From Fidelibacterota bacterium (GTDB lineage: Bacteria > Fidelibacterota > UBA8477): DNA of 35,664 nt. Below, in pieces: positions 6,101 to 23,083 of this stretch. Under the pieces are notes generated by a model. The model saw only the letters and a list, made by a program, of their open reading frames with translations. It ran no database searches and had not been told where the DNA came from. The translations under genes were made by a program, and so were the position numbers. The stretch is taken from the NCBI GenBank assembly GCA_021734045.1, contig JAIPJR010000022.1:1-35664 (forward strand), read 5' to 3'. Within the stretch, counting starts at the first letter, position 1, and every line of letters starts with the position of its first letter.

Positions 6101-8606
6101 GATGACCTGGAATGATTATGATAATGACGGTGATTTGGATTTGTTCGTTACCGGTGACGCCACCACCTCTTCCTATACCGGAATAGACAAATTGTATGAA
6201 AACATTGGTGGCTCGCCCAATACACCACCCTCGGCTCCAACCAACTTGCAGGTCTCTGTTACAGACAAGATCACCTTCTCATGGAACAAAGCAACCGACA
6301 CGGAGACCAGCCAGAATGGGTTAAACTATAATGTTTTCATCGGTACCGGTGCCACAAATGGCAATACACTTTCACCCTCAGCCGATATCAGTTCAGGAAA
6401 ACGACGGATCGTCAGGTCGGGTAATGTGGGATCCGGGACCAGTTATACGATCAATGAACTTGCCGGTGGTGATTTCTATTGGGGCGTCCAGGCGATCGAC
6501 GCCGGCCATGCCGGAGGTCCCTTTGCCAGCGGTACTTTCTCCAATATTGGTCCAGCATCCAATATCAGTGTCACGGATAATCGCCTTGATCGAATGACCA
6601 TTCACTGGTCCAACGGGGTTAACGGTGAAAACCGGATGGTGTTTGTGAAGGAAGGCCTTACCGGCTCACCGCTACCCGTCAATGGCTCCACCTATACCGC
6701 CAACGCTGCCTTAGGTCAAGGCGCTCAGATTGGCTCAAGTGGGTGGTATTGCGTCTATGCCGGTAGTGGAGATAGTGTAATGGTAACTGGTGTGACACCG
6801 ACCACGACCTACCGGATTGCGGTGATTGAATACGCCGGGGTGGATGAAAACCGGTATTACCTCTCACGCTCAGTTCCTGGAAATCCGCGTAATCGCTTTC
6901 CGGTTGTGGGGGGATCAGGGAATGCGCTGACTTTTGATGGGACGGATGATTACATCTCCGCCGCACCGGATGTGCCCAGCGGGACTGAACCATTTACCGT
7001 GGAAGCCTGGGTGAAAACCGAACAGACTCAGAGTCGGACGATTGTCGGTTGGGGCAATAGCAGTAATCGAAATACCTATAATTTCGGTTTTTCTACGGCA
7101 AGCATTTCGGGAACATGGAATAATATTGGGTTTGGATACGATCTGGGATACTATGCCCCCGGTATGGTTGTTTCCGGAAAATGGACACATGTCGCTTACA
7201 GCTTCGATGGTTCAACGCCACTTAAATTATATGTGAATGGCGTGCTCATCGGACAGTTGTTTTCGATGGGGACATCCTATGAGGGGAATACGAACTTTAA
7301 TGTCGGCGCAAGATATTCTTCCTCAATGGAATCGTTTTTTGATGGGTCGGTCGATGCCCTCCGCATCTGGGATGAGGGGCGGACTCAGGACCAGATCAAG
7401 GCGGACATGTGCCGGAAACTGAAATCAACTGATGACAGTCATCTTATCGTCTGTTACAATTTCGATCAGGCATCGAACAGTACGGAGTTGTATTGTGATA
7501 ACCCGGTCAATGACGGGACATTAAACAACTTTGATACGGCAAATGCCTGGACGAAATCCGGCGCTTTGATGGGAGCACATCCTGCGGTTGTCCAAAACAC
7601 AACACCGACACAGATTGGGAATACGGGTCAGAGCGTGAATGTGACACTAACCAACACACCGAACGCTTCAAATTACCTGCATGTCTATTACGACACCAAC
7701 GGGTTAGGTCCCGTCACCACTGCAGATGTTGGCAGCTGGCCGGAGGGAGTCGTAAAACGGGCAGATATTATTTGGGGTGTCCACGAGATCGGGGATGTAA
7801 CCGCCAATCTGACCATCGACTACAGCCAGGTAGCGGGGATCAATAGCCCTGACCTGGTCCGTCTGATCAAACGACCGGATGGTTGTTCGGGCTGGATCGA
7901 TGTCACTTCTGATTTCACGCATAATTTGGTAGATCGGACCTTTGCCAAACTAGGCAATACCAGCTTCAGCGAATTCAGCCTGGGCACAATGGCAGGGGAC
8001 AACAGCCTGCCGGTTCAACTCTCATCCTTTACCGCTGAAAATACGGGTGGTGGGGTTAACCTCAAATGGACCACCGAAAGCGAAATTGAGAATCTGGGGT
8101 ATCTCTTAGAGCGACAGTCATTACAGGATTCAATTTGGACCTTGGTTGCTGATTATGAATCCAATGAGGGGCTTGTGGGTCAGGGGTCAACCAATGATCA
8201 AACACAGTACGATTATTATGACGGGTCGGTTCAATCCGGAACGACCTACAGGTATCGGTTGAGTGATGTTGATTACCAGGGAAATGTGAAGCAACATCCG
8301 GTGATCGAAATAACGGCGACCGCGGCAGAGATTCAACTTCCGACTGAGTTTGCATTGCGGAATATCTATCCCAATCCCTTCAATCCTACTGCTACAGTGG
8401 ATTTTGCGTTGCCGGAGCCGGCGGAAGTCTCCATCGTGATCTATAACATCCTGGGACAACAGGTCACAACACTGGTTAACACCCAACTTCCGGCGGGCTA
8501 TCATAAGGTGCGGTGGCACGGCGAAAATGCGGCAGCCGGGATCTATTTCTGCCGGATGCAGGTAGCTAATTTCTCACAAACCCGAAAGATCCTGCTACTC
8601 AAGTAA
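136..8606 (+). CDS. Giant T9SS-exported LamG/ASH/GLUG/fn3/VCBS surface protein, 5' end cut off by IS
   Basis: The frame is open from the IS boundary to TAA at 8604-8606. LamG coding is already recognisable before the only upstream start-like codon, a TTG at 198 (DDGGWDRSIWV at about 147-179), so 198 is not the natural start. Modules by base position: partial LamG 136-560; ASH/choice-of-anchor-D 630-915; LamG 940-1575; two ASH domains 1590-2190; GLUG-type repeats 2200-3120; five fn3-like repeats 3140-4755; a GWYCVY-containing fn3-like module 4760-5112; about seven FG-GAP/VCBS repeats with DxDNDG calcium motifs 5118-6210; fn3-like modules 6220-6900, including a second GWYCVY copy; LamG 6915-7560; and a T9SS sorting tail from about 8349 (YPNPFNPT, ending KILLLK). 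The likely role is cell-surface adhesion or binding of glycan or protein; the ligand is unknown. The IS probably inactivates it or leaves a truncated product without a signal peptide. Confidence 0.85.
3861..4754 (+). repeat. In-frame tandem repeat, 300-bp unit (fn3-like modules)
   Basis: Three consecutive units start at 3861, 4161 and 4461 with an exact 300-bp period. Each opens with TVTT and carries a PTQHG(I/F)CWS motif and a YYVRAY(A/V)TN motif. An earlier unit at 3441 is related but 120 bp longer, and a more diverged one starts near 3147. The repeat is coding, not a CRISPR or satellite. Confidence 0.85.
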
Positions 8607-9016: not shown

Positions 9017-9877
9017 ATGGATTGGGTATTGGCAATTCGGTCAGAGTGGTTGACACCTGTTTTTCAGGGCTTCAGCCTGTTGGGAGAGGAATACTTTTTT
9101 CTGCTGGCGCTGCCTTTGGGGTATTGGTTGTGGCAGCGGGATGCCATGGGACGGGTGGGCGCCGTGCTGTTATTCACCACGGTGCTGAACGCATTCATTA
9201 AGGAAATATTTCAGATCCCACGACCGGATATTGAGCATCTCATGACGGCGGATGGCTGGTCATTTCCCAGCGGTCATGCCCAAACGGCCATGGTTTTATG
9301 GGGCTGGCTGGCGTGGGAGATTCAGCGGCGCTGGGCGTACTGGACTGCCGGTGTGCTGATTGTGGGAATCGCGGCATCACGGGTGTATCTGGGTGTGCAT
9401 TATCCACAGGATGTCATTGGCGGGATTCTGATTGGCTTACTGACCCTGGTGGCATTTTACTATATCCTTAAAGCCCAACCAAAAATCTGGCTCACCATCG
9501 GACCCTCGCGCCAGACCTTTTTCTTCCTGTTTCTCTTACTGGGCTGGTTCATGTTTTTCCCCCACGATGTCCCGGATAATGCCCTGAAGGGCGGGGCGGC
9601 ACTGATTGGCTTCTGGGGCGGCGTTTTACACGAGCGCCGGTATGTGGCCAGTGTGGCATCGGCGAAATTGCCCATGAGTTTGCTGAAAATTATGGTGGGG
9701 CTCATCGGCATTGCCTTTTGTGTGTTTGGACTGAAGGTCATTTTTACTTCAATTGGCTATCAGACCGATATGGCCCGGTTTCTGCGGTATCTGCTGACCG
9801 GCGCCTGGATTGGCTGGGGACTGCCGTGGCTGGCGATACAATTTGGCTGGGAGGAAACACGCCATCGCAAACATTGA
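9017..9877 (+). CDS. PAP2-family membrane phosphatase
   Basis: This is a 286-residue multi-spanning membrane protein of the phosphatidic acid phosphatase type 2 superfamily, which removes phosphate from lipid phosphates such as phosphatidate or undecaprenyl diphosphate. All three motifs are present: KEIFQIPRP (K62 to P70, the KX6RP motif), PSGH (84-87, with the catalytic-pair His) and SRVYLGVHYPQD (121-132, nucleophile His128 and Asp132). Hydrophobic segments flank the motifs, and four or so more follow in the C-terminal half, making it longer than minimal family members. The start is set by AGGAGG at 9001-9006, ten bases before ATG 9017. It stands alone between two surface-protein genes. The true substrate cannot be read from the sequence; undecaprenyl-PP recycling or lipid turnover are both possible. 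Confidence 0.9.
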   Translation: MDWVLAIRSEWLTPVFQGFSLLGEEYFFLLALPLGYWLWQRDAMGRVGAVLLFTTVLNAFIKEIFQIPRPDIEHLMTADGWSFPSGHAQTAMVLWGWLAWEIQRRWAYWTAGVLIVGIAASRVYLGVHYPQDVIGGILIGLLTLVAFYYILKAQPKIWLTIGPSRQTFFFLFLLLGWFMFFPHDVPDNALKGGAALIGFWGGVLHERRYVASVASAKLPMSLLKIMVGLIGIAFCVFGLKVIFTSIGYQTDMARFLRYLLTGAWIGWGLPWLAIQFGWEETRHRKH

Positions 9878-10109: not shown

Positions 10110-12704
10110 ATGAAGTTGCGAATATTGCTGACGGCCTTACTATCGGTGGGAATCCTGAACGCACAGTTATTTTTCAATGAAATTGACTACGATCAGCCCG
10201 GCACTGATTCAGGTGAATTCTTTGAATTAGCGGGACCGGCCGGCACCTATAACAATGTTGTGGTGAATCTTGTTAACGGTAACGGTGGCGCACCTTACGC
10301 CCCCAGTCCAATCGATCTGGGTACAATTACTTTGACCGATGAGGTGGGCGGTTATGGTTTTTATGTGGTCGGTGTATCATCCGTCCCAAATGTGGATCAT
10401 ACCCCCAGCGGTTTTACCATTCAAAACGGCGCGCCGGACGGCATTCAAGTGTCTGTTAACGGTGTCATTACGGACGCCGTTTCCTATGAAGGAGCCATGA
10501 ATGATCTGGATGGCAACCCCATGGAGGTAGGAACACCGGACGATACCTATTATGAAGGTGCGGAAGGTCAATCCATCGGTCGCCTGGGACTGGATAATTC
10601 ACCCTGGGTGGTGATGAACATTTCCCCCGGTGCCATCAATGAAGGGCAATCCCTGGATCCCGGCGCCAATTTCCCACCCACAGCCAATGCCGGGCCGGAT
10701 CAAACAGCTGATTCCGGCGACACGGTGACATTGGACGGCAGTGCCAGCGCCGATAGTGACGGCGAAGTTGTGGCTTATGCCTGGACCCAGACGGCGGGAC
10801 CCGCTGTAACGCTGAGTGCAACCGACGCAGCGGTGGTAACCTTCACCGTGCCCGATGTGGAGGAGACCACAACCTTTACATTTGAGCTGACCGTAACCGA
10901 TGATGGTGATGAAACCGACACGGATGACGTGAATGTTACGGTGCATATTGTTACCGATTTAACCATCGGTGAAGCGCGGCAAGTGGCCTTGGGCTCGATC
11001 GTCCGGGTAACAGGCGTGGTCAATAGCATTAACTGGGTCAGCACCACGGAATTCAATATCCAGGACGCCACCGGCGGCATTTCGCTTTATTATACTGGCG
11101 GTACCCTGCCGCTGGCCATGGGCGACTCTGTGCGGGTCACGGGAGAAATCGATGAATACAACGGCAAGCTGGAGATCATTCCGGCTGCCGAAAGTGATGT
11201 CATTGTGCTGGCCAGCAATGTGGCACTGCCTGAACCGGCGCTGCTCACCATCGCGCAGTTGAATGCCAACGGTGAGGATTACGAAAGTCAGCTCATCCGG
11301 ATTAACAATCTATCTAACACCGGCAGCGGTGATTCCTGGCCCTCTACCGGTTCCGATGCCAATCTAAACATGACAGATAACGATTCCGATGTAGGGGTCA
11401 TGCGCATTGACAAGGAGACCAATATTGATGGTTCCGTGGAACCGGCCTGGCCGGCGGATGTGATCGGTATTGTGACTGAATATAACGGTACCTACCAGAT
11501 CCTGCCCCGCATGCTCACCGACCTGCTGGTGGAATCCAATGCGCCCACCTTTGAAAATCTAGCTGTCTCACCCGACTGGGTTACGAGCCAGAATGAGATT
11601 GAAATCAGCGTAGATATGATTCCACCGGATGAGGAAACCAATGTCGTTACCGCCAATATCCTTTACGGTACGGACGGGACATTTCTCAACAGCGCTGAAA
11701 TGTGGTTGGATCAGGGTAATTCCTGGATGGGCATTATCCCGGCCCAGAGTGCCAACAGCAAATTGCAGTTCAAATTCGAAACCACGGATAATAATGACCT
11801 GGTGAGTTCATCCGCCATTTTCACGCAGATGATCGCGTCTGCCACGCCAGTGGATATTGCTGATATTCAGGCGAATCCGGTGGAAGGTGCGATTTATACA
11901 ATTACCGGTTTGGTGACCATCGGCTCCGGCATTCTCCAGAACGGTGTCACCAACGCCTACATTCAGGACGAATCGAGCCGGGGGATCAATCTCTATTATC
12001 CGGAAGATGTGAGCATTTCCCGCGGTGATGAGTTGAATGCGGTTGGTGAAATCGCATTCTACGGCAGCCGGGTGGAATTGGCCTATTTTAATTATCAGGT
12101 CATCTCAACCGGAAATGACCTCCCCGCACCCGCTCAGGTGAGCGTGGGTGAGGCTAATAGCGCTGACTGGGAAGGGACCTGGATACAGTTCGAAGGTGAA
12201 GTGGTAGACCAATACACAGCCGGTGGCGGCAGCACATTCTTCATCAGGGGTGGGACTGACACCACCACTGTACGCATCTGGGAGTCCACCGGCATTGATA
12301 TGTCCGGCTTGACCAATGGTACCACCTGGCGTTTTTCCGGAGTGGGCAGCGAATACAGCGGGACTTACCAGTTGCTGGTGGGGTACGAAGAGGATATGGT
12401 GCTCCTCACAGCCATCGAGCCTGAAGCTGGCATTGTTCCGGCTGAATTTGCTCTGAATGCACCCTACCCCAATCCCTTTAATCCCAGCACGACCATCGGT
12501 TTTGTTCTACCGGTGCAGAGTGACTATACCCTGGTGGTCTATGACCTGCGTGGGCGGTTGGTGTCAACATTGGCTGAAGGTACCGCACCAGCGGGTGAAT
12601 ATTCACTGCAATGGCAGGCGGATGGTATGGCGTCGGGAATTTACTTTGTGAAATTGACGACCCCGTCTTTCACCAAAACCCAAAAAGTAATGCTGTTGAA
12701 ATAA
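10110..12704 (+). CDS. Secreted lamin-tail/PKD/OB-fold protein with T9SS sorting tail
   Basis: The start is ATG 10110, preceded by AGGAG at 10095-10099, and gives 864 residues with the signal peptide MKLRILLTALLSVGILNAQ. Modules in order: lamin-tail domain about 20-185 (opening FFNEIDYDQPG, a typical LTD start); PKD domain about 189-280 (ANAGPDQTADSG, LDGSAS); OB-fold-like segments about 282-369 and 373-476 (VRVTGVV, FNIQD, GDSVRVTGEI); an Ig-like segment about 480-576; two more OB-like segments about 579-768; and a T9SS tail from about 776 (YPNPFNPST, ending KVMLLK). LTD plus OB folds are accessory parts of ExeM/NucH-type extracellular nucleases, but no catalytic domain is present here. It is first in a co-directional run reaching 23083. 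Expected location is the cell surface or medium. Nucleic-acid binding is an inference. Confidence 0.85.
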   Translation: MKLRILLTALLSVGILNAQLFFNEIDYDQPGTDSGEFFELAGPAGTYNNVVVNLVNGNGGAPYAPSPIDLGTITLTDEVGGYGFYVVGVSSVPNVDHTPSGFTIQNGAPDGIQVSVNGVITDAVSYEGAMNDLDGNPMEVGTPDDTYYEGAEGQSIGRLGLDNSPWVVMNISPGAINEGQSLDPGANFPPTANAGPDQTADSGDTVTLDGSASADSDGEVVAYAWTQTAGPAVTLSATDAAVVTFTVPDVEETTTFTFELTVTDDGDETDTDDVNVTVHIVTDLTIGEARQVALGSIVRVTGVVNSINWVSTTEFNIQDATGGISLYYTGGTLPLAMGDSVRVTGEIDEYNGKLEIIPAAESDVIVLASNVALPEPALLTIAQLNANGEDYESQLIRINNLSNTGSGDSWPSTGSDANLNMTDNDSDVGVMRIDKETNIDGSVEPAWPADVIGIVTEYNGTYQILPRMLTDLLVESNAPTFENLAVSPDWVTSQNEIEISVDMIPPDEETNVVTANILYGTDGTFLNSAEMWLDQGNSWMGIIPAQSANSKLQFKFETTDNNDLVSSSAIFTQMIASATPVDIADIQANPVEGAIYTITGLVTIGSGILQNGVTNAYIQDESSRGINLYYPEDVSISRGDELNAVGEIAFYGSRVELAYFNYQVISTGNDLPAPAQVSVGEANSADWEGTWIQFEGEVVDQYTAGGGSTFFIRGGTDTTTVRIWESTGIDMSGLTNGTTWRFSGVGSEYSGTYQLLVGYEEDMVLLTAIEPEAGIVPAEFALNAPYPNPFNPSTTIGFVLPVQSDYTLVVYDLRGRLVSTLAEGTAPAGEYSLQWQADGMASGIYFVKLTTPSFTKTQKVMLLK

Positions 12705-12778
12705 TGTCCTTTCATCCGGCGTCCGATTTGAACTCCCGGGCGCCGGGTGACGACACCTGAATTGACAGGAAGTATAAT

Positions 12779-14773
12779 TTGAAACGAAAAATCATCACCC
12801 TTGTAACCCTGGTTTTGGCCGGGTTGCCGTTGGGACTTATGGCGCAGATCGATCATCTGGTATTTGCCGAGGTGGTTCTGCAACCCTCTGACGGTGAGTA
12901 TGTGCGCATCGAAAATCCCACCAACCAAACGGTGAATCTGAGCAATTATTATCTCACCGACGCCACCGATCAGACCAATAGTAAATTTTACTATAACCTG
13001 CCATCCGGCGCAGATTATTGGTCCGGTGGATCAACCGATTTCATCGCCCGTTTTCCGAATCAGGGTTTGGCGCCAGGTGCGTCTTTGGTTGTAGGTCTCA
13101 GCACTGCCAGCCGCTACCAGAGTGCCTATGGCATCTTGCCGGATTTGGCGCTTAAAGAGGATTTGCTGCCGGCCGTGACTGGCGAGACAACCATCGGAGG
13201 CGCCCCCTATGGATTTCTGGGAAATGCCAGCGAGACACTGGTTTTGTTCGCCTGGGATGGCAGCAGCGCGGTGGTGCAGGATGTGGATTACCTCATCTGG
13301 GGAAATACCGATTTCGCGGTGGATAAAACCGGAGTTGGCAGTTACCTGCCCGACACGCCTATTGCCAATCAATCTGCAGCGCCCATTCATCTGGATGGTG
13401 AGAAACTCATTCGTGCCGCCAATAACGAAGGTGCGGAAGTTTCAAGCGGCGGGAACGGCATTACCGGACATGATGAAACCAGTGAAGATCTGGCCAATAC
13501 CTGGGTGGTAACCACGCTTGCGGTAACCAAGCCGGTGATTTCCAATATCCAGTCTTCACCAGCGAATCCGCCGCCATCCGATCCCATCACTGTTTCCGCC
13601 ACCGTGGTGGATACCAGCGGTTTGGCAGCAGTGACACTTTATTACATTTTTGCCGGAGATACTTCGACGCTGGCCATGACCAATTCCGGTGGCGATACCT
13701 ATTCTGTCCAGATCCCGGCCATTGGTGCTGAAGGGCAGTTGGGATTCTATATCCTGGCCACCAATACCAGCAACATTTCCACGAAAAGTAATACCAACGG
13801 CATTACGATTGCCGAGCCACCGGAAGCCCTGACCATCGGGACGGTGCGGCAGAATATTGATGACTATGTTGGCCAGAATGTCACCTTCAACGCGGTGGTG
13901 ACCATCGGTTCCGGCGTGATTCGGACAGACCGCACCAGTATGTACATCCAGGATGGTTCGGGATTTGGCATTAATCTGAATCAGGCTGGATTGTTAAACC
14001 CGCCGCTGGTACGCGGTGATTCGGTGCAGGTCACCGGTGTGGTGGATGTGTATGTGAGTTCGTCCACCGGAGACGAGACGGTGCAGCTTTCCAGCTTTAC
14101 CTACACGCTTCTGGCGCAGAACCGACCCATTCCATTGGTGCGGAGTATTGATGTCACTCAGTTGAATACATTGGTCTATGAAGGGTCATTCGTGAAAATG
14201 TCCGGCGTGATCACCAGCCGAAGTGATAACATTGGCGGGGGCTCCAACATCATCCTTGAAGATGCCACCGGCGCCACAACTGTGCGGGTGTGGGATACCA
14301 CCAATATGCTGGATGATCCCACGGCCGACAGTCTGCTACAGGTGGGCATGATTGTGGAAATCGGCGGTGTGGGCAGCAGCTACCGGGCAGAAGGCCAATT
14401 ATTGGCCGCCTATCCGGAGGATGTGCGTGAAAAGCCGGAAGGCGAAGCCGGTACCGGCGCCACAACATTAAAAGTGCGTCCCTACCCGTTTGTCCCTCAG
14501 TTGGGGGAGCGCATCCAGTACACCTACAGTTTTCCAGCCTACTCCCGGATTACCCTGAGAATATTTGACGTCTCCGGTCGTTATGTGATAACGCTGTTCG
14601 ATGATTTCAGACCCTTGGCGTTGGAGAAAACCGAGTATTGGAATGGCCGTGATGCCACAAACGCCATTGTCCCGGCGGGGACATACATCATGCATTTGGA
14701 AACTGTTAATCGCAATACCGGCGAGCGGGCTTCTGACATGGCGCCGGTGGTTATTGGAACGAGGTTGAAATGA
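12779..14773 (+). CDS. Secreted lamin-tail/OB-fold protein with variant FlgD-like C-terminus
   Basis: The start is TTG 12779, supported by AGGA at 12767-12770 and an immediate signal peptide (MKRKIITLVTLVLAGLPLGL, then MAQ); the product has 664 residues. A lamin-tail domain covers about 27-225 (HLVFAEVVLQPSDGEYVRIE), an Ig-like region about 250-345, two OB-fold-like segments about 350-553 (TFNAVVTIGSG, MYIQDGSG, GDSVQVTGVV), and a FlgD-Ig/sorting-like domain about 560-664 (LRIFDVSGRYV, VPAGTYIMHL). The C-terminal module lacks the NPFNP box and ends GTRLK, unlike the tails of the neighbouring cargos. It is a paralogue in architecture of the preceding gene, 74 bases upstream. Its stop codon overlaps the next start (ATGA), indicating translational coupling to the PorV/PorQ-like barrel. 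The function is inferred as surface nucleic-acid or nucleotide binding and is not proven. Confidence 0.8.
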   Translation: MKRKIITLVTLVLAGLPLGLMAQIDHLVFAEVVLQPSDGEYVRIENPTNQTVNLSNYYLTDATDQTNSKFYYNLPSGADYWSGGSTDFIARFPNQGLAPGASLVVGLSTASRYQSAYGILPDLALKEDLLPAVTGETTIGGAPYGFLGNASETLVLFAWDGSSAVVQDVDYLIWGNTDFAVDKTGVGSYLPDTPIANQSAAPIHLDGEKLIRAANNEGAEVSSGGNGITGHDETSEDLANTWVVTTLAVTKPVISNIQSSPANPPPSDPITVSATVVDTSGLAAVTLYYIFAGDTSTLAMTNSGGDTYSVQIPAIGAEGQLGFYILATNTSNISTKSNTNGITIAEPPEALTIGTVRQNIDDYVGQNVTFNAVVTIGSGVIRTDRTSMYIQDGSGFGINLNQAGLLNPPLVRGDSVQVTGVVDVYVSSSTGDETVQLSSFTYTLLAQNRPIPLVRSIDVTQLNTLVYEGSFVKMSGVITSRSDNIGGGSNIILEDATGATTVRVWDTTNMLDDPTADSLLQVGMIVEIGGVGSSYRAEGQLLAAYPEDVREKPEGEAGTGATTLKVRPYPFVPQLGERIQYTYSFPAYSRITLRIFDVSGRYVITLFDDFRPLALEKTEYWNGRDATNAIVPAGTYIMHLETVNRNTGERASDMAPVVIGTRLK

Positions 14774-15657
14774 GACGGGTAACGATATTGCTGTTCATGG
14801 TGACAGGACTGGCCTGGTCTCAAGTGACCACCGATGTGATGTATAAAACCGCTCGCTCCACAGCGCTGGCGGCTTCTGACATTGCCCATGTGACGGGTGG
14901 GAATGCCCTGTTTACCAATCCCGCCGCGCTGGTGGATGTGGATCGCCGGTCTGTGGTAGCGGGATATCAAAATCTCTTCGGCCAAAGCTGGCTGCCCTAT
15001 ACGATTTTTGGACTTTCGTCCCAACTACCGGGTGTGTGGGGAACGGTAGGATTCTCTTTGGAGAGCAGCGGTGTTTCCTACCAGGATACCAGTTTATCCA
15101 ATGAACTGGCGGTGGGTTTTAGTCATGGATTTTACCTCATGCAGGACCGTTTATCCGCTCTGGCGGTGGGTTACACGGTAAAGTACTACGCACTGGATCT
15201 GGGACGCTCGGCAGGCTATGCCGGTACCGGATCAGGCGGAATGGAACTGGGTAGCGGATCGGCCATCGGTGTGGACATTGCCCTGCGGGCGAACCTTTCA
15301 CAGCGTCACTGGGGTGCGGTGGTGGTGAAAAATGTTAATCAACCACAGCTGGGTCTGAACAGCGCCAAGGTGGATCTGCCCCGGGAAATTCAGGCGGGCA
15401 TCGGCTACACCCCGTATAATCGCGTCTGGACGACATTCTCGTTGGTGAGCAGCGTGGGGCACGATACCCAATTCCACGCGGGCCTGGAATATGGCATCAG
15501 CGATATGTTCAGTCTGCTTACCGGCATTCAATCCAGCCCCAACCGGGTTGGTTTGGGATTCAATGCCCACTTGGTGGGATTTGACCTGGGCTATGGCTTG
15601 TTAACACATCCGGTACTGCCCATGACCCATCAATTCACCCTTCAATATCGATTCTGA
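14770..15657 (+). CDS. PorV/PorQ-like outer-membrane beta-barrel
   Basis: This 295-residue protein has a signal peptide (MRRVTILLFMVTGLAWSQ) followed by alternating amphipathic segments and a C-terminal aromatic residue (TLQYRF), as expected for an outer-membrane barrel. The early ARSTALAASDIAHVTGGNALFTNPAAL stretch (not quoted in full as one motif elsewhere) contains the NP-A-L element typical of the UPF0164/PorV/PorQ group. In T9SS bacteria PorV shuttles and anchors cargo, and PorQ belongs to the attachment complex. The start overlaps the previous stop by ATGA, so it is co-translated with a secreted lamin-tail protein, suggesting a dedicated export or anchoring partner. Family level is fairly sure; the exact subfamily is not. 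Confidence 0.7.
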   Translation: MRRVTILLFMVTGLAWSQVTTDVMYKTARSTALAASDIAHVTGGNALFTNPAALVDVDRRSVVAGYQNLFGQSWLPYTIFGLSSQLPGVWGTVGFSLESSGVSYQDTSLSNELAVGFSHGFYLMQDRLSALAVGYTVKYYALDLGRSAGYAGTGSGGMELGSGSAIGVDIALRANLSQRHWGAVVVKNVNQPQLGLNSAKVDLPREIQAGIGYTPYNRVWTTFSLVSSVGHDTQFHAGLEYGISDMFSLLTGIQSSPNRVGLGFNAHLVGFDLGYGLLTHPVLPMTHQFTLQYRF

Positions 15658-15669
15658 GATCGTTAGCGC

Positions 15670-18162
15670 ATGTTTATTCAACCCAAGCAAATCATGATTA
15701 AAGTACTGCTGCTGACCGGTCTTCTGACGGCGGTGAGTTGGGCGGCTGTAGCGCACCGGGTGGACATTAATAATGCCTCCCTGGATGAGATTATGGAACT
15801 GCCCATTACCACTCAACAGGCCCAGGCGTTATATGACCGGGTCTATTATCAGGGCCCCTTCCTCAGTCTATATGAAATTTCCCTGGTCGAGTCGATCGAC
15901 GCGGAGACACTGGAGCGTTTAAAACCGCTGATTGTGATTCGTCCCCTGGTGGTTACCGGAGAGAAATCACGCCTGCAGGACACCTATCGCAAGGTGGAGC
16001 AGTGGAGCAGTCTGGAAGGCGCCAACGAGGGCTTGATCGAAGTCTGGCTGGACCGCCTGGCCGAACCGATTAATGTGAATCGGGCCACCTATGATGATCT
16101 CACAGCGTTGCAAAATGTGAGTCCTATCGATGCAGTGGCGGTTTTGAAATTACAGGACGAAATCAATATCGGCAGCCAGCGTGCCCTCCGCAGTGCCATC
16201 GGGCTATCCTATTACGGCTATCGCAATCTTCGTGATTTCGTCCGGTATTATGACCCGGATGAATCGGGCAAGGTGCATTACTGGTATAACATGACCCTGA
16301 ATACAGCACCGCCCGCCGGCGGCTCCGCTGAAGAGGGTGATGTGGTGGTTCTGCTGCGGAATTATCCGCCGGCTGTGCGCCACAAGTTTCTGATCACGTA
16401 CGGTCAGCATGTGAATTTTGGCATGTCTTACCACCGCCAGTTAGCCGAAAAAAACCAATATGTAAACGATGGTGATTTCAAAATTCCTGACGGGAAATGG
16501 GCTTTCACACTGAAGGATTATCGCTGGGGACCACTTTCCATGGAGCGACTGGTGGCTGGAAATTTCAGCGCCACCTTCGGGCAGGGCGTGGTCATGGAGA
16601 CCACCGACTATTTTTCGCCGCGCCGGGATGGCTACGGCTGGTCCAAGCGCGTTCCGGGCATTTTTGCCGATCTTTCCGGCACCCGCAGCTATGCGTTGCG
16701 CGGATTAGGATTACAAATGCGGCTGTTAAACAAGCTGCGTTTGATCGGCTTTTTATCAAAAAATTCCCGCGACGCGGTCTTGAATCCGTCCGGTGAAGAT
16801 TTCACCACCATTATCAATATGGATTCACGCCAACCCTACGGCTGGTACGGACTCTTGCCGCAGAACCTCATGAACAGCGTGAATGAAGTGACCTACGGCG
16901 GGAATCTCCAGTTCACTTTCTGGCCCGGGACTTACCTGGGATTTACTTCCTACGAAAGCCTGTATGATAAAGAATTACGCCCCGATCCCGCCGCATCTAT
17001 TATTGATCCGGCTCAAGCCGGACGCTACCTGACCACCATTGGTAACACAGCCGACACGGAAATTGCGGCCATGTATGCATCCAGCGCTTCCTCACCGCTG
17101 TGGGACGCTGCCAGAGCCAACCGGCGGATTCAGGGGATTGAATTCAGTACGGTTATCCGGAATATGGCGCTTCAGGGCGAATGGGCCGTGCTGGATAGTG
17201 ATTATGACATGTTCAGCGTGAAGACCGATCCCCAGGCGCTGGTGGTGAATGCCTTTGTTCAGTTTGACAATTTTAATCTGCTGGTGTTGTATCGCGATTA
17301 TGATTTGGCATTCGACAACCCCTATCAGCGCTCTTTTTCCAATTACCAACGCTACAAAGGCTCCATCCTGGAGGATTTGTTCTATCTCCAGGATCCCATT
17401 TTCGGATCACTTTTTTCCAATGCAGCTCAGCCCCAGGCCGAGCGCGGCTGGTTCATCTCCAGCCGCTATCAGATGCATCGGGATGTGGTGGCGAATTTGG
17501 ATTTTGATACCTGGACCCGGGCGGCTGACGGTGCACGGTATTTTCGTACCGTCGCCCGGCTGGAATACCGGTTCGCGTTTAACTACCGCCTCCGAATCCG
17601 GCAAAAATGGCAACAGCGGGGTGATTTTGACTACCTGAGTGCTTCGCCGTTCGATTCCCGCGAAACCCGGGTGGATTTCCAATTCCGTCTCTCCGATTAC
17701 GACAACCTGTCGCTCATCTATGCCAATTCTTTCACGCGTTTCTCCCAGCGCAGGCGGCTCACCGTTGACCTGGGGTCTGGTGGTGACAGCTATTCCATGG
17801 TAGGCAATGCCGGTGCACCCAGTGAAGCCCTGGGCTTTACCGCGACACATAATTTCACCGATCGCTTCAAAGTCCTGGGGTCGGCTCTGGTGTATAAGGG
17901 CTTTTTCTGGAATTTTGAGGACACGGATTTTCGCATTTTCGATTCCCCGGTGCACAGCCTGCACTGGTGGGTGACAGCGTTCAGTCGGATTGGTGATAAC
18001 TGGGCTGTACGGCTGAAGGTGTCCCACGAGGCCGGAGCGCCGGTGACTAATTATGCCTTTTCACCCGAAGGCTCCACTGCTTATACCCGGTTATTGTGGG
18101 AAAATATTACTTCACGGGCGGAGGCGAATCATGTCCGTCTGCAAATTGATTATGCTTTTTAA
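15670..18162 (+). CDS. Helix-hairpin-helix (ComEA-like) protein with predicted outer-membrane barrel
   Basis: The protein has 830 residues from ATG 15670. An in-frame ATG at 15694 (MIKVLLLTGLLTAVSWA) is an equally plausible start for the signal peptide, and neither has a clear ribosome binding site. Two HhH modules follow: VDINNASLDEIMELP, continuing to about residue 95, and INVNRATYDDLTAL at about 136-195. These resemble the DNA-binding HhH of ComEA. The remaining 600 or so residues are rich in alternating hydrophobic and aromatic strands and end LQIDYAF, as in an outer-membrane barrel. Similar long HhH-barrel proteins occur in T9SS bacteria without a known function. Position within the nuclease-rich operon suggests DNA binding at the outer membrane; this is inference. 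Confidence 0.75.
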   Translation: MFIQPKQIMIKVLLLTGLLTAVSWAAVAHRVDINNASLDEIMELPITTQQAQALYDRVYYQGPFLSLYEISLVESIDAETLERLKPLIVIRPLVVTGEKSRLQDTYRKVEQWSSLEGANEGLIEVWLDRLAEPINVNRATYDDLTALQNVSPIDAVAVLKLQDEINIGSQRALRSAIGLSYYGYRNLRDFVRYYDPDESGKVHYWYNMTLNTAPPAGGSAEEGDVVVLLRNYPPAVRHKFLITYGQHVNFGMSYHRQLAEKNQYVNDGDFKIPDGKWAFTLKDYRWGPLSMERLVAGNFSATFGQGVVMETTDYFSPRRDGYGWSKRVPGIFADLSGTRSYALRGLGLQMRLLNKLRLIGFLSKNSRDAVLNPSGEDFTTIINMDSRQPYGWYGLLPQNLMNSVNEVTYGGNLQFTFWPGTYLGFTSYESLYDKELRPDPAASIIDPAQAGRYLTTIGNTADTEIAAMYASSASSPLWDAARANRRIQGIEFSTVIRNMALQGEWAVLDSDYDMFSVKTDPQALVVNAFVQFDNFNLLVLYRDYDLAFDNPYQRSFSNYQRYKGSILEDLFYLQDPIFGSLFSNAAQPQAERGWFISSRYQMHRDVVANLDFDTWTRAADGARYFRTVARLEYRFAFNYRLRIRQKWQQRGDFDYLSASPFDSRETRVDFQFRLSDYDNLSLIYANSFTRFSQRRRLTVDLGSGGDSYSMVGNAGAPSEALGFTATHNFTDRFKVLGSALVYKGFFWNFEDTDFRIFDSPVHSLHWWVTAFSRIGDNWAVRLKVSHEAGAPVTNYAFSPEGSTAYTRLLWENITSRAEANHVRLQIDYAF

Positions 18163-18195
18163 TTCAAGATGCCCATGCATAAAGGTGGCAATACG

Positions 18196-19530
18196 ATGAG
18201 AAAATGGATTTTACAGTGGATATCCCTGAGTTTGACGCTGGGGTTGGTTTTTACCGGTACCGTCCGGAGCCAGTCCTGGTTCAATGCCAATGTGACGGGC
18301 CAAACCTGGCAGGGGAACGCCCGGGCCATGGCGCTGGGTCATGTTGGAACGGCAGAAGCCTTTGGTGTGATGAATCTTTTCACCAATCCGGCCCTGCTGG
18401 CAGAGAAACCCGGCTTACGGCTGGAGGCTACTTCTAACAGCAGCCATCGCCTGGAATCACGCGCCTACCCTGCTATTGATCAATTCGGTGATGTGGTGAC
18501 GGATAATATCTATAATATCACCGAATCCTGGCAGACACTGTACAACGCCGGTGGCCTCTGGTCATCCGGTCATGTGGCACTGGCAGTGGGTACTGCGCCC
18601 TACTGGTCACCTTTTTTCCGCTACAGCGAAGATGTTCGGGGAAATTTAACCTCTTCCAATTACAACCGTGATCCCCTGGTGGGCAGTTTTCAATGGGATC
18701 GGTCGGGAGTGGTTCAGGAAACAGCGTTTGGAATGGGTGCCGCTTACAAAAATCTCAAAACCGGTGTTTCATTTGGTCTGTTGACCGGTCGGAATTTGAA
18801 TGTGACGAAAGGGACAGTAGTCATTACACCAGACGCGGCTTTGGATACGGACACCACAAACGTAACGGCTTATGATTATAAGCTGGATAAGGCGACGATT
18901 CTTTATCGCATCGGGGTGAGTTATAATGTGAACCCTCGCTTCCGGATTGCCTGGAACTATGAAAGCGGCACGGAAATGACATTCTCAACAGCGATTGAAA
19001 TGCCTTATTTCCCACAGACGGCGGCGACGCCCGGCTATCTAATATCCGATACGACACTTAGTTATACCCAGACACGCCCCGGCAGAATGTCGCTGGGCGT
19101 CCGCATGCAACCTCGGAATTTATTGCGCACCCGTGCCTATTTTGAGGTGGCTTACCAGGACTGGAGTCAATTCAAATCCTCCTACCCTGATTCCATCAAT
19201 GGTGAATCTGAAATGACCACACCATTCTCCGAAACCACCACTTTCCGTGGCGGCGTGGAACATGAGTTATTCAATAGTTTGCCGGTGCGGGTGGGATTTA
19301 TTTACGCTGGTTCACCACTGGTAAAAAGCCTGGCCCAGACCTGGATCACCATGGGCTCGGGTTACACTTATGGCAACCTGGTTGTGGATGTGGCCATGGA
19401 ATTCGGCATGGTGGATTACGCCTACCCCGATCTATTTGTAGCCACCGGCCAGACCTATCACGGTGAAGAGACCGTGCACGAGACCACCACCAAATTTGCG
19501 CTGTCATTGGCGTATGTCTTCAATCGCTAA
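18196..19530 (+). CDS. Outer-membrane beta-barrel protein (PorV/OmpP1-like)
   Basis: Start ATG 18196 is chosen over ATG 18169 because AAAGGTGG at 18181-18188 is well spaced and the product begins with a clean signal peptide (MRKWILQWISLSLTLGLVF). The 444-residue product contains GNARAMALGHVGTAEAFG and then NLFTNPALLAEKPG, the N-terminal pattern of UPF0164/PorV or FadL-like barrels, followed by strand-like repeats to LSLAYVFNR. It is the second barrel of this type in the run, 33 bases after the HhH-barrel gene and 16 bases before the metallophosphatase-nuclease gene. The likely role is cargo anchoring or transport of small hydrophobic or nucleotide products; the sequence does not decide. Confidence 0.7.
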   Translation: MRKWILQWISLSLTLGLVFTGTVRSQSWFNANVTGQTWQGNARAMALGHVGTAEAFGVMNLFTNPALLAEKPGLRLEATSNSSHRLESRAYPAIDQFGDVVTDNIYNITESWQTLYNAGGLWSSGHVALAVGTAPYWSPFFRYSEDVRGNLTSSNYNRDPLVGSFQWDRSGVVQETAFGMGAAYKNLKTGVSFGLLTGRNLNVTKGTVVITPDAALDTDTTNVTAYDYKLDKATILYRIGVSYNVNPRFRIAWNYESGTEMTFSTAIEMPYFPQTAATPGYLISDTTLSYTQTRPGRMSLGVRMQPRNLLRTRAYFEVAYQDWSQFKSSYPDSINGESEMTTPFSETTTFRGGVEHELFNSLPVRVGFIYAGSPLVKSLAQTWITMGSGYTYGNLVVDVAMEFGMVDYAYPDLFVATGQTYHGEETVHETTTKFALSLAYVFNR

Positions 19531-19546
19531 CGGAATCGGCAGCCCC

Positions 19547-21565
19547 ATGAGAAAATCCTCCCCGTTTAAAACCCGCCCACACCGTATTTTGCCCGCCCTT
19601 TTCATCTGGGGTTTATTGGGAAGCTCACTGGTAGCCCAACCGGTGCTCTATCCACCCAATTTTGAAAACGACGACTATGACAAGCTCCATATTCTGTTTA
19701 CCAATGACCTGCACGGCGCCATTGACATGAGCAAAGCCTGGTTCATGAATCCCGAATATCCGCCTGATCTGGGTGGTGGTGCCAGCATGTACACCTATGT
19801 GCAGAACATCCGCGACGAAGCCGAGGCAGAAGGAGCCGGAGTTCTTTTGGTGGACGCGGGGAATTTTTACCAGGGAACGCCGTTAGGGATATCCGATTCG
19901 GGTCGCACCATCCTCCATTGGATGAACATGATGCAATACGATGCCGTGGCATTGGGGACATACGAATTCATGTTTGGTGTGGAGAATGTCCGTCAGCTGG
20001 CAAAATCCGCCAAATTCCCGTTTTTATCCGGCAATATTATTCAAACGAGCACCGGGCGTCCGGTTGATTTCGCCACCCCCGGAAGAATCCTCAATTTCAA
20101 TGGCGTTAAAATCGGACTTTTCGGACTCACCACATCCGCCACACCGGAATTATTGGCGCCGGAAAAAACCCGCGGACTTCGGTTTCAAAATTCTCTGGAG
20201 GTTGCCGAAAAACTCATTACCGACTTGAAAAAACAGGGTGCCACGGTCATTCTGAGTCTGGCCCATTTGGGTGTGCCGTATGGACGCGAACGGGCATTTG
20301 ATGAATTTATGGAGTCCACGGTTGAGGAAGAATTCCATACCGCGCCTGTCAATTCGCTCCAATTGGCGCATCTGATTCCCGGTATTGATGCCGTTTTTTC
20401 AGGACACATCACCGCCGGCTACAATTATCCCTGGGAGGATCCGGATACCCACACGCTGGTTTTTCAGGGCTATGGCAATGGCAGCAATATTGGGCATGTG
20501 ACCCTTTACATTCACAAAGAAACAAAAACGCTGGCCGGTTACAGTCTGCCCACCAAGCGGGGCGGTCTGGTCACGCTCTCCACCGATGATGTGGTTCCCA
20601 ATGAAGCGGTTGCCCGGCAGGTCGGTAAACTGGCCGAACAAGCCAATCAGGCCACCTGGGCGATTCCCGATTACCAGAAGAAGCTGGAAACCATCCGCAA
20701 TATCAGACCGTTAAGTCCAGGTGCTCTGGACACCATTCCCGGCCGTCCGCTCCAGAATAAGTTTCCCATCCCCCGGTTCAACCGTTGGGCTGAATTGGAA
20801 GCCATGACCTGGAATATGGAGCATTTTCCCAAAGAAATGGACCTCACCATCAGCACGGCTTCTGAAGTTTTGCACGAAATTGGTGCCGACATTTATGCCG
20901 TCCAGGAGATCGGGAATATCGCTGCGTTCATGGATCTGATGGCTTCACTGCCTCAGTACGGTTACGTCCTGACCCAGCAATCCTCATTTTATGATCAGGC
21001 GATTCTCTACCGGAAGGATGTTCTGACGCCCCTGATGGCTGCCGAGCCCTTTGCGGAGATGGATTATAATTTTGCCGGACGACCCCCTTTGCGGGCTGAT
21101 TTTGTCTGGCGTTTTGGTAAAAAAGAGATGGTGGTAACGGTCGTGAATATCCACATGAAATGCTGTGGAGACGGGCTAAACCGGCGGAAAAAAGCCGCGG
21201 TGGAACTCCATACCTATCTGAATCATCTGGTAGATAATGGTCTGGAAAATATCATCGTACTGGGTGATTGGAACGATGATGTGACCGATGTGGGACAAGA
21301 ACAATCCTTCCCAGTGTTTCTGGGTGATACGGAAAATTACCGGTTTGCCACGCTGCAAATCGCCCGGGATCCGGAGCAGGCGTCCTATCCCACCTGGCCC
21401 AGTTTTCTGGATCATATTTTAATCAGCAAAGCGCTTTTCCCGGCCTTTGAGGAGGGCGGATTTATCCGGACTTTGCCCATCGAAACCTGGTTTGGAAGCT
21501 GGGAAAATTATGAGTACCTGGTGTCGGATCACCGGCCGGTGTTGATTCGAATACCGGTGAGATAG
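19547..21565 (+). CDS. Degenerate 5'-nucleotidase-type metallophosphatase fused to EEP nuclease
   Basis: The start ATG 19547 follows the previous stop by 16 bases and opens a signal peptide ending SLVAQ; the product has 672 residues. The N-terminal half (about 45-345) has the UshA/5'-nucleotidase fold signatures, but several are altered. TNDLHG (52-57) keeps Asp54 and His56, and AHLG keeps His240. However DAGD is DAGN (Asn106), GNHEFD is GTYEFM (137-142) and GHSH/GHSQ is GHIT (286-289), so the dinuclear metal site and catalytic His/Asp pair are mostly lost. The C-terminal half (about 418-672) is an endonuclease/exonuclease/phosphatase domain with its key residues intact: Asn423 in TWNMEHF, Glu454 in QEIG, NIHMK, GDWND, LDHILIS and SDHRP (His662). 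Phosphodiesterase or nuclease activity on extracellular DNA, RNA or other phosphoesters is likely. Confidence 0.85.
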   Translation: MRKSSPFKTRPHRILPALFIWGLLGSSLVAQPVLYPPNFENDDYDKLHILFTNDLHGAIDMSKAWFMNPEYPPDLGGGASMYTYVQNIRDEAEAEGAGVLLVDAGNFYQGTPLGISDSGRTILHWMNMMQYDAVALGTYEFMFGVENVRQLAKSAKFPFLSGNIIQTSTGRPVDFATPGRILNFNGVKIGLFGLTTSATPELLAPEKTRGLRFQNSLEVAEKLITDLKKQGATVILSLAHLGVPYGRERAFDEFMESTVEEEFHTAPVNSLQLAHLIPGIDAVFSGHITAGYNYPWEDPDTHTLVFQGYGNGSNIGHVTLYIHKETKTLAGYSLPTKRGGLVTLSTDDVVPNEAVARQVGKLAEQANQATWAIPDYQKKLETIRNIRPLSPGALDTIPGRPLQNKFPIPRFNRWAELEAMTWNMEHFPKEMDLTISTASEVLHEIGADIYAVQEIGNIAAFMDLMASLPQYGYVLTQQSSFYDQAILYRKDVLTPLMAAEPFAEMDYNFAGRPPLRADFVWRFGKKEMVVTVVNIHMKCCGDGLNRRKKAAVELHTYLNHLVDNGLENIIVLGDWNDDVTDVGQEQSFPVFLGDTENYRFATLQIARDPEQASYPTWPSFLDHILISKALFPAFEEGGFIRTLPIETWFGSWENYEYLVSDHRPVLIRIPVR

Positions 21566-21620
21566 GCTCTCATTCCGGCCGCCTGGTGTTTGAAATACGG
21601 TAGTGAATAATTAGCAATAG

Positions 21621-22529
21621 ATGAAAAAACGGTTTATCAAAAATATCCTGCTACTGGCAGTCCTCATGCAGGTATGGTTGGGTGGTTGTGCCGAACCGGT
21701 TCCCTCCAATCATTCCTTTTCGCTTCCCACGGTGAACGGCGAAGAGACATTGGAGGTAATTACCTGGAACCTGCGTTATTTCCCCCAGAATGGTGTGGAG
21801 GAGGTAAACCGCGTGATTATGCTGCTGGATTCGTTAAATGCCGATGTGGTCTGCCTGCAGGAGATCGATCAGATGAGCCAGCTTGTCCGTGTTGCCAATG
21901 CATTGCCCCAGTATGACCTGATCCAGTCCATCCGTACCGATTATCTCATGCTGGGCATTTTGTACAAACCGGATTTACTTGTGCCGTTGGATACCAGTGA
22001 ATTATTCCCGGACGAAAGCTATACCTTCGCCGGTCGATTCCCGCTACAGGTCAAATTTGCCAGGCAAATGGACAGCCTGGCGTATCATTTTACCGTCATC
22101 AACATGCACCTGAAAGCCATGGGTGACGCCGCCAGCATCCAGCGTCGCCATAATGCCACCACCCTGCTGCACGACTACTTGTTAACGACCATTGACAGCA
22201 CAGCCGATACCAACATTGTGGTCGTGGGGGATTGGAATGATGACCTGTCCACCAGCAGTGCTACCACAAGTTTTACGGCATTCATGAATGACACGGAAAA
22301 TTTTTACTTCACCACCTGGGATCTGGCCTGGGCGGAAACAGATGCGGAGGATTCCTATCCCGGTTGGTCCAGTTTCCTTGATCATATTCTTATCAGCCGG
22401 GCGCTGTTTGATGAAAATGAAACGGCCACCACCCGTACGCTGAAGCTGGACGATTATCTCAGCGATTATTTTTCGCTGGTTTCGGATCACCGACCAGTGA
22501 TGTTGCGCTTTGTACCGCTTCCGGATTAA
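21621..22529 (+). CDS. EEP-family nuclease/phosphodiesterase lipoprotein
   Basis: This 302-residue protein has a lipoprotein signal (hydrophobic run, then LGGC with Cys23), so it should be attached to the inner or outer membrane on the periplasmic or surface side. The rest is a single endonuclease/exonuclease/phosphatase domain with every expected motif: TWNLRYF, QEID, NMHLK, GDWND, LDHILIS and SDHRPV. It closely parallels the C-terminal half of the preceding gene, down to shared phrases such as YTFAGR versus YNFAGR, DTENF/DTENY and YPGWSSF versus YPTWPSF, so the pair looks like a duplication with or without the phosphatase module. No good ribosome binding site is visible before ATG 21621. 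DNase, RNase or phospholipid-type substrates cannot be separated by sequence. Confidence 0.85.
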   Translation: MKKRFIKNILLLAVLMQVWLGGCAEPVPSNHSFSLPTVNGEETLEVITWNLRYFPQNGVEEVNRVIMLLDSLNADVVCLQEIDQMSQLVRVANALPQYDLIQSIRTDYLMLGILYKPDLLVPLDTSELFPDESYTFAGRFPLQVKFARQMDSLAYHFTVINMHLKAMGDAASIQRRHNATTLLHDYLLTTIDSTADTNIVVVGDWNDDLSTSSATTSFTAFMNDTENFYFTTWDLAWAETDAEDSYPGWSSFLDHILISRALFDENETATTRTLKLDDYLSDYFSLVSDHRPVMLRFVPLPD

Positions 22530-22549: not shown

Positions 22550-23083
22550 ATGATTATTGTTGCTTCACAGAATCCGGTGAAAATCGCTGCCACCCGTGGC
22601 GCATTTGAACGGGCATTTCCCGGCCGGGATTTTTCCGTTGAAGGCGTGCGTGTAGCCTCCGGTGTATCCAGCCAACCGCGGACCGATGCTGAGACACGGC
22701 TGGGTGCCTGGAATCGGGCACAGGCTGCTCACGACGCCCGGCCGGAGGGCGAGTTTTCCGTAGGCCTTGAGGGTGGTGTGGAACGGATTAAGGGTCATTG
22801 GGAAGCTTTTGCCTGGATTGTGATTCTGGATAAAAAGGGTAAAACCGGCCAGGGCCGCACCGGCACGTTTATTCTGCCTGACGCGATTGGTAAATTGCTA
22901 GATATGGGCATGGAGTTGGGTGAAGCGGATGACCGGGTCTTCAACCAGGTCAATTCCAAGCAGAATGCCGGCGCGGTAGGTATCCTCACCAAAGGGCTGA
23001 TGGATCGCGCTACATACTACGAACCGGCGGTGCTGTTCGCCCTGATTCCCTGGCTGATGCCGGCATATTACCCGACGGATTAG
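22550..23083 (+). CDS. yjjX: YjjX-family inosine/xanthosine triphosphatase
   Basis: This 177-residue protein begins MIIVASQNPVKIAATRGAF and contains SQPRTDAET and SVGLEGGVE, all typical of the YjjX/DUF84 family. Members hydrolyse non-canonical ITP/XTP (and more generally damaged purine NTPs) to monophosphates plus PPi in the cytoplasm. The length matches the family. The start lies 20 bases after the EEP lipoprotein stop, so it is probably the last gene of the run. A nucleotide-cleaning enzyme downstream of surface nucleases fits a nucleotide-salvage theme, but it may simply be a co-transcribed housekeeping gene. Confidence 0.85.
   Translation: MIIVASQNPVKIAATRGAFERAFPGRDFSVEGVRVASGVSSQPRTDAETRLGAWNRAQAAHDARPEGEFSVGLEGGVERIKGHWEAFAWIVILDKKGKTGQGRTGTFILPDAIGKLLDMGMELGEADDRVFNQVNSKQNAGAVGILTKGLMDRATYYEPAVLFALIPWLMPAYYPTD

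Follow-up and report, generated by a model that had tools for sequence, protein, structure and literature searches.

What does a run of seven closely packed genes, combining surface proteins, outer-membrane barrels and phosphoesterases, do together? The genes (gA-gG, Table 1) lie on contig JAIPJR010000022.1 of a Fidelibacterota bacterium (assembly GCA_021734045.1), and the whole stretch of 35,664 nucleotides analyzed is referred to as the window. A previous inspection of this DNA (the sequence-only reading) had described them as a candidate surface system for extracellular DNA or nucleotides. After the present analysis, an undescribed surface or envelope system capturing and digesting external nucleic acids or nucleotides is, on balance, the reading we somewhat favour. 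From the earlier description, the synteny, the OB fold, the EEP domains and the type IX secretion system (T9SS) were retained, while the YjjX gene, DNA binding by the HhH domain and the anchoring of the nucleases were not. Neomarinimicrobiota are marine bacteria that occur widely and are uncultured, and much phosphorus and nitrogen is held in dissolved DNA. How pieces of nucleic acid pass the outer membrane of Gram-negative bacteria as food is poorly known, and the operon supplies genes with which this can be tested.

Conservation and distribution of the operon

The operon consists of gA-gG, seven of the eight genes named in the sequence-only reading, and is conserved in Candidatus Neomarinimicrobiota, to which the relatives of the window belong. 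All eight genes are present at the positions given in Table 1, on a single strand and tightly packed with small gaps or overlaps. The order gA-gG was the same throughout the genus and the order (about 17 genomes, with a few contigs cut short) and in genome G028, and gA-gE followed by a shorter gF was observed in five genomes from two other families. The core gB-gC-gD-gE (LTD/OB protein, PorV-like barrel, HhH-barrel and FadL-like barrel) is syntenic into Calditrichota. The synteny expected among relatives was therefore found, both for the complete gA-gG order and, at greater distance, for the core.

When about 85,000 species genomes were scanned with a gD profile, 80 loci were obtained, most of them in Neomarinimicrobiota and Calditrichota and one on a Zixiibacteriota contig. 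Where the neighbour lay on the contig, gD had gC directly to its left in 76 of 77 loci and gE directly to its right in 74 of 77, and gB or gA stood second to the left in 69 of 73, all co-directional with gD. The median gap between gD and its neighbours was 2 bases over the 80 loci, and the gene neighbourhood around gD is beyond chance. Within the phylum Neomarinimicrobiota, a strong gD was present in about 80 of 245 genomes. We regard the operon as genuine and broadly conserved. As far as the literature was searched, it is undescribed; the gene set was not found in these searches, in agreement with the sequence-only reading, which knew of no such system.

Three of the loci (L115, L141 and L118) are titled Flavobacteriales or Caldisericaceae, yet group with Neomarinimicrobiota or Calditrichota on a tree of gD, so these titles are probably wrong.

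Exchange of the enzyme after gE

In its N-terminal half, gF carries a UshA-type metallophosphoesterase domain (108 bits to UshA), which could be aligned with the structures of UshA and CD73. Two of the active-site motifs of this domain are lost, with the metal-bridging GD changed to GN and GNH[DE] changed to GTYE, and window gF fails the UshA-family motif test that sister-family gF passes. No 5_nucleotid_C domain was found in window gF with Pfam, and the EEP domain occupies its place. The two EEP proteins without LTD or OB domains were correctly recognized and both keep their catalytic residues, but the UshA-type domain of gF had gone unreported. Judged from these sequences, gF is an EEP domain grafted onto a dead 5'-nucleotidase, an origin different from that of a split ExeM/NucH part.

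In two sister families (f6 and f9), gE is followed by a 5'-nucleotidase that is complete, has PF02872 and keeps its motifs intact, an observation that points to nucleotides. The metallophosphoesterase is broken in all 54 EEP fusions (counted as proteins; a number of genomes entered twice, so that the distinct genomes are about 38), and the nucleotidase in the slot is intact in 16 of 16 distinct Neomarinimicrobiota cases. On the gD tree, the slot states need 6 changes compared with a mean of 28 with shuffled labels (a quick tree, carrying modest weight), which is consistent with one swap inside Neomarinimicrobiota. The unrelated e(P4) lipoprotein 5'-nucleotidase family was observed between gE and gF or replacing gF in L104/L106 and L125/L131, two separate lineages which stand apart on the gD tree. 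A second EEP gene is common, and in genome G039 an EEP gene follows the 5'-nucleotidase. The substrate is best indicated by the presence of unrelated nucleotide-cleaving enzymes at one position. In addition, the gF series offers a clear natural example of an operon position retained through an exchange of its catalytic domain, the former domain having become a pseudoenzyme.

Other features were observed around this slot. The second EEP protein of L104 (16661-18280) has LTD and dockerin on one chain, nearer to the ExeM arrangement. In L113, L118, L120, L129 and L134 (Calditrichota), the protein after gE keeps 5_nucleotid_C with broken metallophosphoesterase motifs, and its sequence suggests that catalysis may have been lost independently there. 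A PNP_UDP_1 gene after the L099 5'-nucleotidase had hopanoid-associated phosphorylase and futalosine hydrolase as its low-score nearest families; similarly placed genes in L095, L097, L098 and L101 formed a separate cluster, whose scanned member (L095) gave no informative family match. Neither the PNP_UDP_1 gene nor this cluster was used as evidence.

Domains of the surface proteins gA and gB

Pfam matches in gA were Por_Secre_tail (35.9 bits), DUF5689 (47.8 bits), PF01336 (OB; 29.0 bits, cut-off 27) and PKD. The sorting tail is present in 19 of 19 gA homologues, and the genome encodes a T9SS (full PorU at G000:C73, E 4e-209); with a C-terminal sorting domain and this system, gA has the features of T9SS cargo. 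LTD was found in 13 of the 19 homologues, and no Pfam LTD match was obtained for window gA. Hence, of the two lamin-tail/OB proteins proposed before, the LTD of gB and the OB domain of gA were recovered, but not an LTD in gA of the window.

The LTD of gB scored 41.2 bits (Pfam cut-off 34.3) and occurs in 25 of 26 homologues. PF01336 reached 25.8 bits in gB, just below the cut-off of 27, and OB was matched in 24 of the 26 homologues. In the AlphaFold model of gB (pLDDT 86.8), residues 454-554 aligned to the OB domains of anticodon-binding, RPA and PolD structures with Z 11-13, so this part of the predicted model adopts the OB fold that had been anticipated. The region 360-552 of the same predicted model aligned to tandem-OB HIN domains, and the C-terminus weakly resembles that of PorU. 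Generic immunoglobulin (Ig) repeats dominated the Foldseek search with gB.

Catalytic residues and location of the EEP proteins

The EEP domain (PF03372, cut-off 24.5) was matched at 38.9 bits in gF and 47.9 bits in gG. The catalytic N, E, D-x-N and D-H are present, and across 29 sequences their conservation is complete or nearly so. Among structures, the EEP profile matched an EEP-domain protein (3e-8), DNase I and DNase gamma (about 1e-5) and sphingomyelinase C (2e-4), a ranking that favours a nuclease without proving it; the gG sequence by itself gave no match in the PDB. The closer likeness to DNases than to sphingomyelinase agrees with the earlier proposal of a nucleic substrate.

gF has a signal-peptide-like start, and no lipobox was found in 57 gF sequences. 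In gG, the window copy has a lipobox-like LGGC and at least 14 of 22 homologues have a lipobox. No T9SS sorting domain was detected in gF or gG with Pfam and NCBIfam (E 0.1). Since a sorting tail is missing and gG is a predicted lipoprotein, gF and gG are probably not T9SS-anchored, unlike gA, and would be periplasmic proteins or lipoproteins. The T9SS anchoring proposed before has support in the tail of gA and in PorU, but is not supported for the two EEP proteins.

Barrels gC, gD and gE and the HhH domain

For gC, the full-length match to NF033709 (PorV/PorQ) was 47.1 bits, below the cut-off of 90, and the protein was treated as a distant relative; its profile matched PorV (6h3i_F) weakly (E 0.02). 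gE belongs to the FadL/OmpP1 family, with 34.6 bits to Toluene_X/FadL (PF03349, cut-off 29.7), and its profile found TbuX/TodX/FadL and PorV. Two PorV/OmpP1-like barrels had been predicted; gE passes the family cut-off, while the PorV kinship of gC stays below it.

The prediction of a ComEA-like HhH protein with a barrel was confirmed for gD by a Pfam HHH_3 match (41.5 bits) and by a model (pLDDT 80.9, pTM 0.77) in which helices extend to about residue 190 and some 25 strands then form a single large barrel. The longest alignments of this barrel were to usher pores (362-380 residues, root-mean-square deviation 4-5), with porins at similar Z. Generic barrels dominated the Foldseek search with gD, and no specific barrel relative could be named from it.

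By sequence profile, the HhH domain of gD is ComEA-like with two repeats, and the profile also matches EEPD1. The score against the ComEA family TIGR01259 was 25.2 bits, and its cut-off of 152 was not reached. GxG occurs at the four HhH hairpins in 0, 2, 0 and 0 of 102 homologues. Residues in the loop that corresponds to the lysine pair of ComEA are mainly acidic or polar (E/D/Q/S). Uptake by Vibrio ComEA is abolished or severely reduced when Val or Glu replaces the hairpin glycine, or when the lysines are changed (PMC3879209). The missing GxG and the acidic or polar loop make it unlikely that gD binds DNA in the manner of ComEA, and DNA binding by this domain is not supported, as the DNA-contact hairpins are missing in nearly all homologues.

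In L133 (9887-13558; Caldithrix sp. RBG_13_44_9, a Calditrichota-type contig), gD and gE form a single frame of 1224 residues, which is either a fusion hinting at cooperating barrels or an assembly artefact.

Proposed function and evidence against it

The operon is proposed to capture nucleic acids or nucleotides at the cell surface, pass them across the outer membrane and cleave them as a source of phosphate and nucleosides. gA, and probably gB, would be exported via the T9SS. gC would probably retain them at the surface, with gE perhaps contributing, and the OB domains of both surface proteins would bind the polymer. gD would be a wide outer-membrane passage, in which the periplasmic HhH domain would serve as an adaptor for a partner and not as a DNA hook. 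Cleavage, within or close to the periplasm, would be the task of the EEP domains of gF and gG, and gF may have retained its dead 5'-nucleotidase half for docking or ligand binding. In Guaymas Basin enrichments, UBA2242-class Marinisomatota, recovered from DNA-fed cultures among others, have genes for purine and pyrimidine degradation (PMC8630151), and the genome UBA2242 itself (L137) carries the operon with an intact 5'-nucleotidase.

A more far-reaching proposal can be offered only tentatively, as possible rather than probable. gB-gE could be the core of an undescribed outer-membrane import machine, composed of the barrel of gD with about 25 strands and a tethered periplasmic (HhH)2, two FadL/PorV-type barrels, and OB-fold surface proteins feeding it. 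Beside a core that stayed in place, at least three unrelated families would have taken turns in supplying the phosphoesterase, in one case through the graft of EEP onto a dead 5'-nucleotidase.

Four observations weigh against capture and digestion of nucleic acids or nucleotides. The nucleotidase in the slot is broken in 5 of 9 Calditrichota cases; the Calditrichota with gB-gE and no enzyme alongside form one group on the gD tree; the GxG test on 102 homologues left the gD HhH domain without DNA-contact hairpins; and the CNT nucleoside transporter in the genome was rejected as evidence, as 139 of 150 genomes have a CNT with or without the operon. Because of the enzyme-less clade and the broken Calditrichota nucleotidases, the core may serve a different or broader purpose.

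Alternative explanations

The enzyme-less clade would also suit a general module for surface assembly or adhesion, in which gC and gE shuttle or anchor gA and gB, gD is their outer-membrane platform, with the phosphoesterases carried along as passengers. For type B cargo, genes for PorV-family shuttles and for T9SS cargo frequently lie side by side, and the proteins act pairwise (PMC12618676). The C-terminus of gB is PorU-like, and Ig and PKD domains are frequent in adhesins. However, the repeated recruitment of enzymes of the same class at this place would be unexplained if they were passengers, and the OB pair of gB also speaks against such a module, which we consider unlikely, though it deserves serious attention.

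DNA uptake for natural transformation would employ the same proteins differently: DNA would be bound by the OB proteins, pulled into the periplasm by the gD barrel and its tethered ComEA-like domain, and trimmed by the EEP enzymes, and ComEC would import one strand. Its main support comes from Riemerella anatipestifer, where transformation requires each of three proteins, one with DUF5689, the outer-membrane protein encoded with it in an operon, and an HhH protein (PMC8459023); gA contains DUF5689, gD joins a barrel to a ComEA-like fold, and ComEC is present in the genome. ComEC is, however, equally frequent in relatives without the operon and was rejected as a discriminating marker, the hairpins and the lysine-pair loop of gD carry the kinds of change that abolish uptake by Vibrio ComEA (PMC3879209), 5'-nucleotidases have no role in transformation, and the operon has no TonB-receptor-like partner according to Pfam. 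Together, these points make transformation a poor candidate.

The EEP and UshA families include enzymes acting on non-nucleic phosphoesters, and such a substrate (phospholipid, phosphosugar, UDP-sugar or inositol phosphate) would also fit sphingomyelinase C in the EEP profile list (2e-4), the FadL-like gE and the PAP2 gene conserved upstream in the order, but it is the least probable of these explanations, as DNases and the EEP-domain protein outscore sphingomyelinase, gB has OB folds and both alternative slot enzymes come from 5'-nucleotidase families.

Comparison with known systems

In outline, the proposed system for capturing and digesting nucleic acids or nucleotides resembles SusCD-type uptake in Bacteroidota, where a surface catcher, an outer-membrane passage and a degrading enzyme are encoded in one operon; no SusC, SusD or TonB-receptor homologue was found in the present operon with Pfam. 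The ExeM/Xds/NucH nucleases of Shewanella and Vibrio share the LTD, OB-type and EEP domains, used there for extracellular DNA degradation. In contrast to them, the domains here are on separate proteins, EEP sits on a dead 5'-nucleotidase and barrels are encoded alongside. "Split ExeM/NucH parts", as the genes had been called, is therefore a loose label: the domains do occur on separate chains, but the best scores were 23-36 bits against a cut-off of 300 (NF033681). ExeM itself requires its OB-type and EEP parts but can do without LTD (PMC6085458).

The DNA-degradation loci of Izemoplasmatales likewise combine nuclease and nucleotidase genes with one for an LTD/nucleic-acid-binding protein, and are marked by co-located LTD/OB/nuclease, nucleotidase and transporter genes; they pair with ABC transporters, whereas outer-membrane barrels are found here (PMC8289736). 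With UshA and ecto-5'-nucleotidase, homology covers the N-terminal half of gF, and sister-family gF is a complete member; window gF, by contrast, has lost the catalytic motifs and 5_nucleotid_C. The ComEA-like HhH fold of gD is shared with ComEA and with ComEA-derived domains in DNases, such as the Thioalkalivibrio DNase, in which HhH and EEP are joined (PMC4777378), and EEPD1, but in gD it is fused to an outer-membrane barrel and the DNA-contact hairpins are missing.

The Riemerella anatipestifer transformation genes (RA0C_RS04920, RA0C_RS04915 and RA0C_RS02645) likewise encode a DUF5689 surface protein, an outer-membrane protein and an HhH protein (PMC8459023), but the operon differs in its barrel type, in the fusion of HhH to the barrel and in its nucleotidase/EEP enzymes. 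Although gA contains DUF5689, Pfam gave neither a TonB-receptor nor a CarboxypepD_reg match in the operon.

Gene organization and neighbouring genes

The genes of the operon are listed, with gH, in Table 1. The start of gF was set at 19547 for the signal peptide, within a frame open from 19463. Matches in promoter and terminator scans were no commoner than in shuffled sequences.

Table 1. Genes of the operon and the adjoining gene gH in the window.
Gene	Position	Strand	Features
gA	10110..12704	+	Surface protein: LTD-like N-terminus, PKD, DUF5689/OB-type domains, type A T9SS sorting tail
gB (core gene)	12779..14773	+	LTD, Ig-like, tandem OB and FlgD/PorU-like C-terminal domain
gC (core gene)	14770..15657	+	PorV/PorQ-family-like outer-membrane barrel
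gD (core gene)	15670..18162	+	Two ComEA-like HhH repeats (29-92, 129-192), then outer-membrane barrel (199-830)
gE (core gene)	18169..19530	+	FadL/OmpP1-family outer-membrane barrel with PorV kinship
gF	19547..21565	+	Signal peptide; broken UshA-type metallophosphoesterase (~19682-20581); intact EEP (~20804-21532)
gG	21621..22529	+	Lipoprotein-type EEP phosphodiesterase/nuclease
gH (YjjX, inosine/xanthosine triphosphatase)	22550..23083	+	Outside the system

The sequence-only reading had let the run end in YjjX. This gene, 21 bases after gG in the window, adjoins the operon only there and in genome G001, and not in G002 or other relatives; it was rejected as a member of the system and is regarded as a local neighbour. 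The genes flanking the core in Calditrichota (sigma-54 activator, kinase, MazG and homoserine dehydrogenase) were set aside as having no functional link.

Upstream of gA, a PAP2-family phosphatase (9017-9877) is a neighbour of the operon in the order of the window and not in other families. Further upstream (198-8606), a T9SS-tailed protein of 2802 residues was observed with ASPM/Hydin-type Ig, FG-GAP and three LamG-like domains. In a sister family, a sensor kinase (Reg_prop/Y_Y_Y, HisKA_2) is convergent to the operon at L069 (8181-11903) and about 10 other loci; this type of sensor is typical for nutrient regulation in Bacteroidota.

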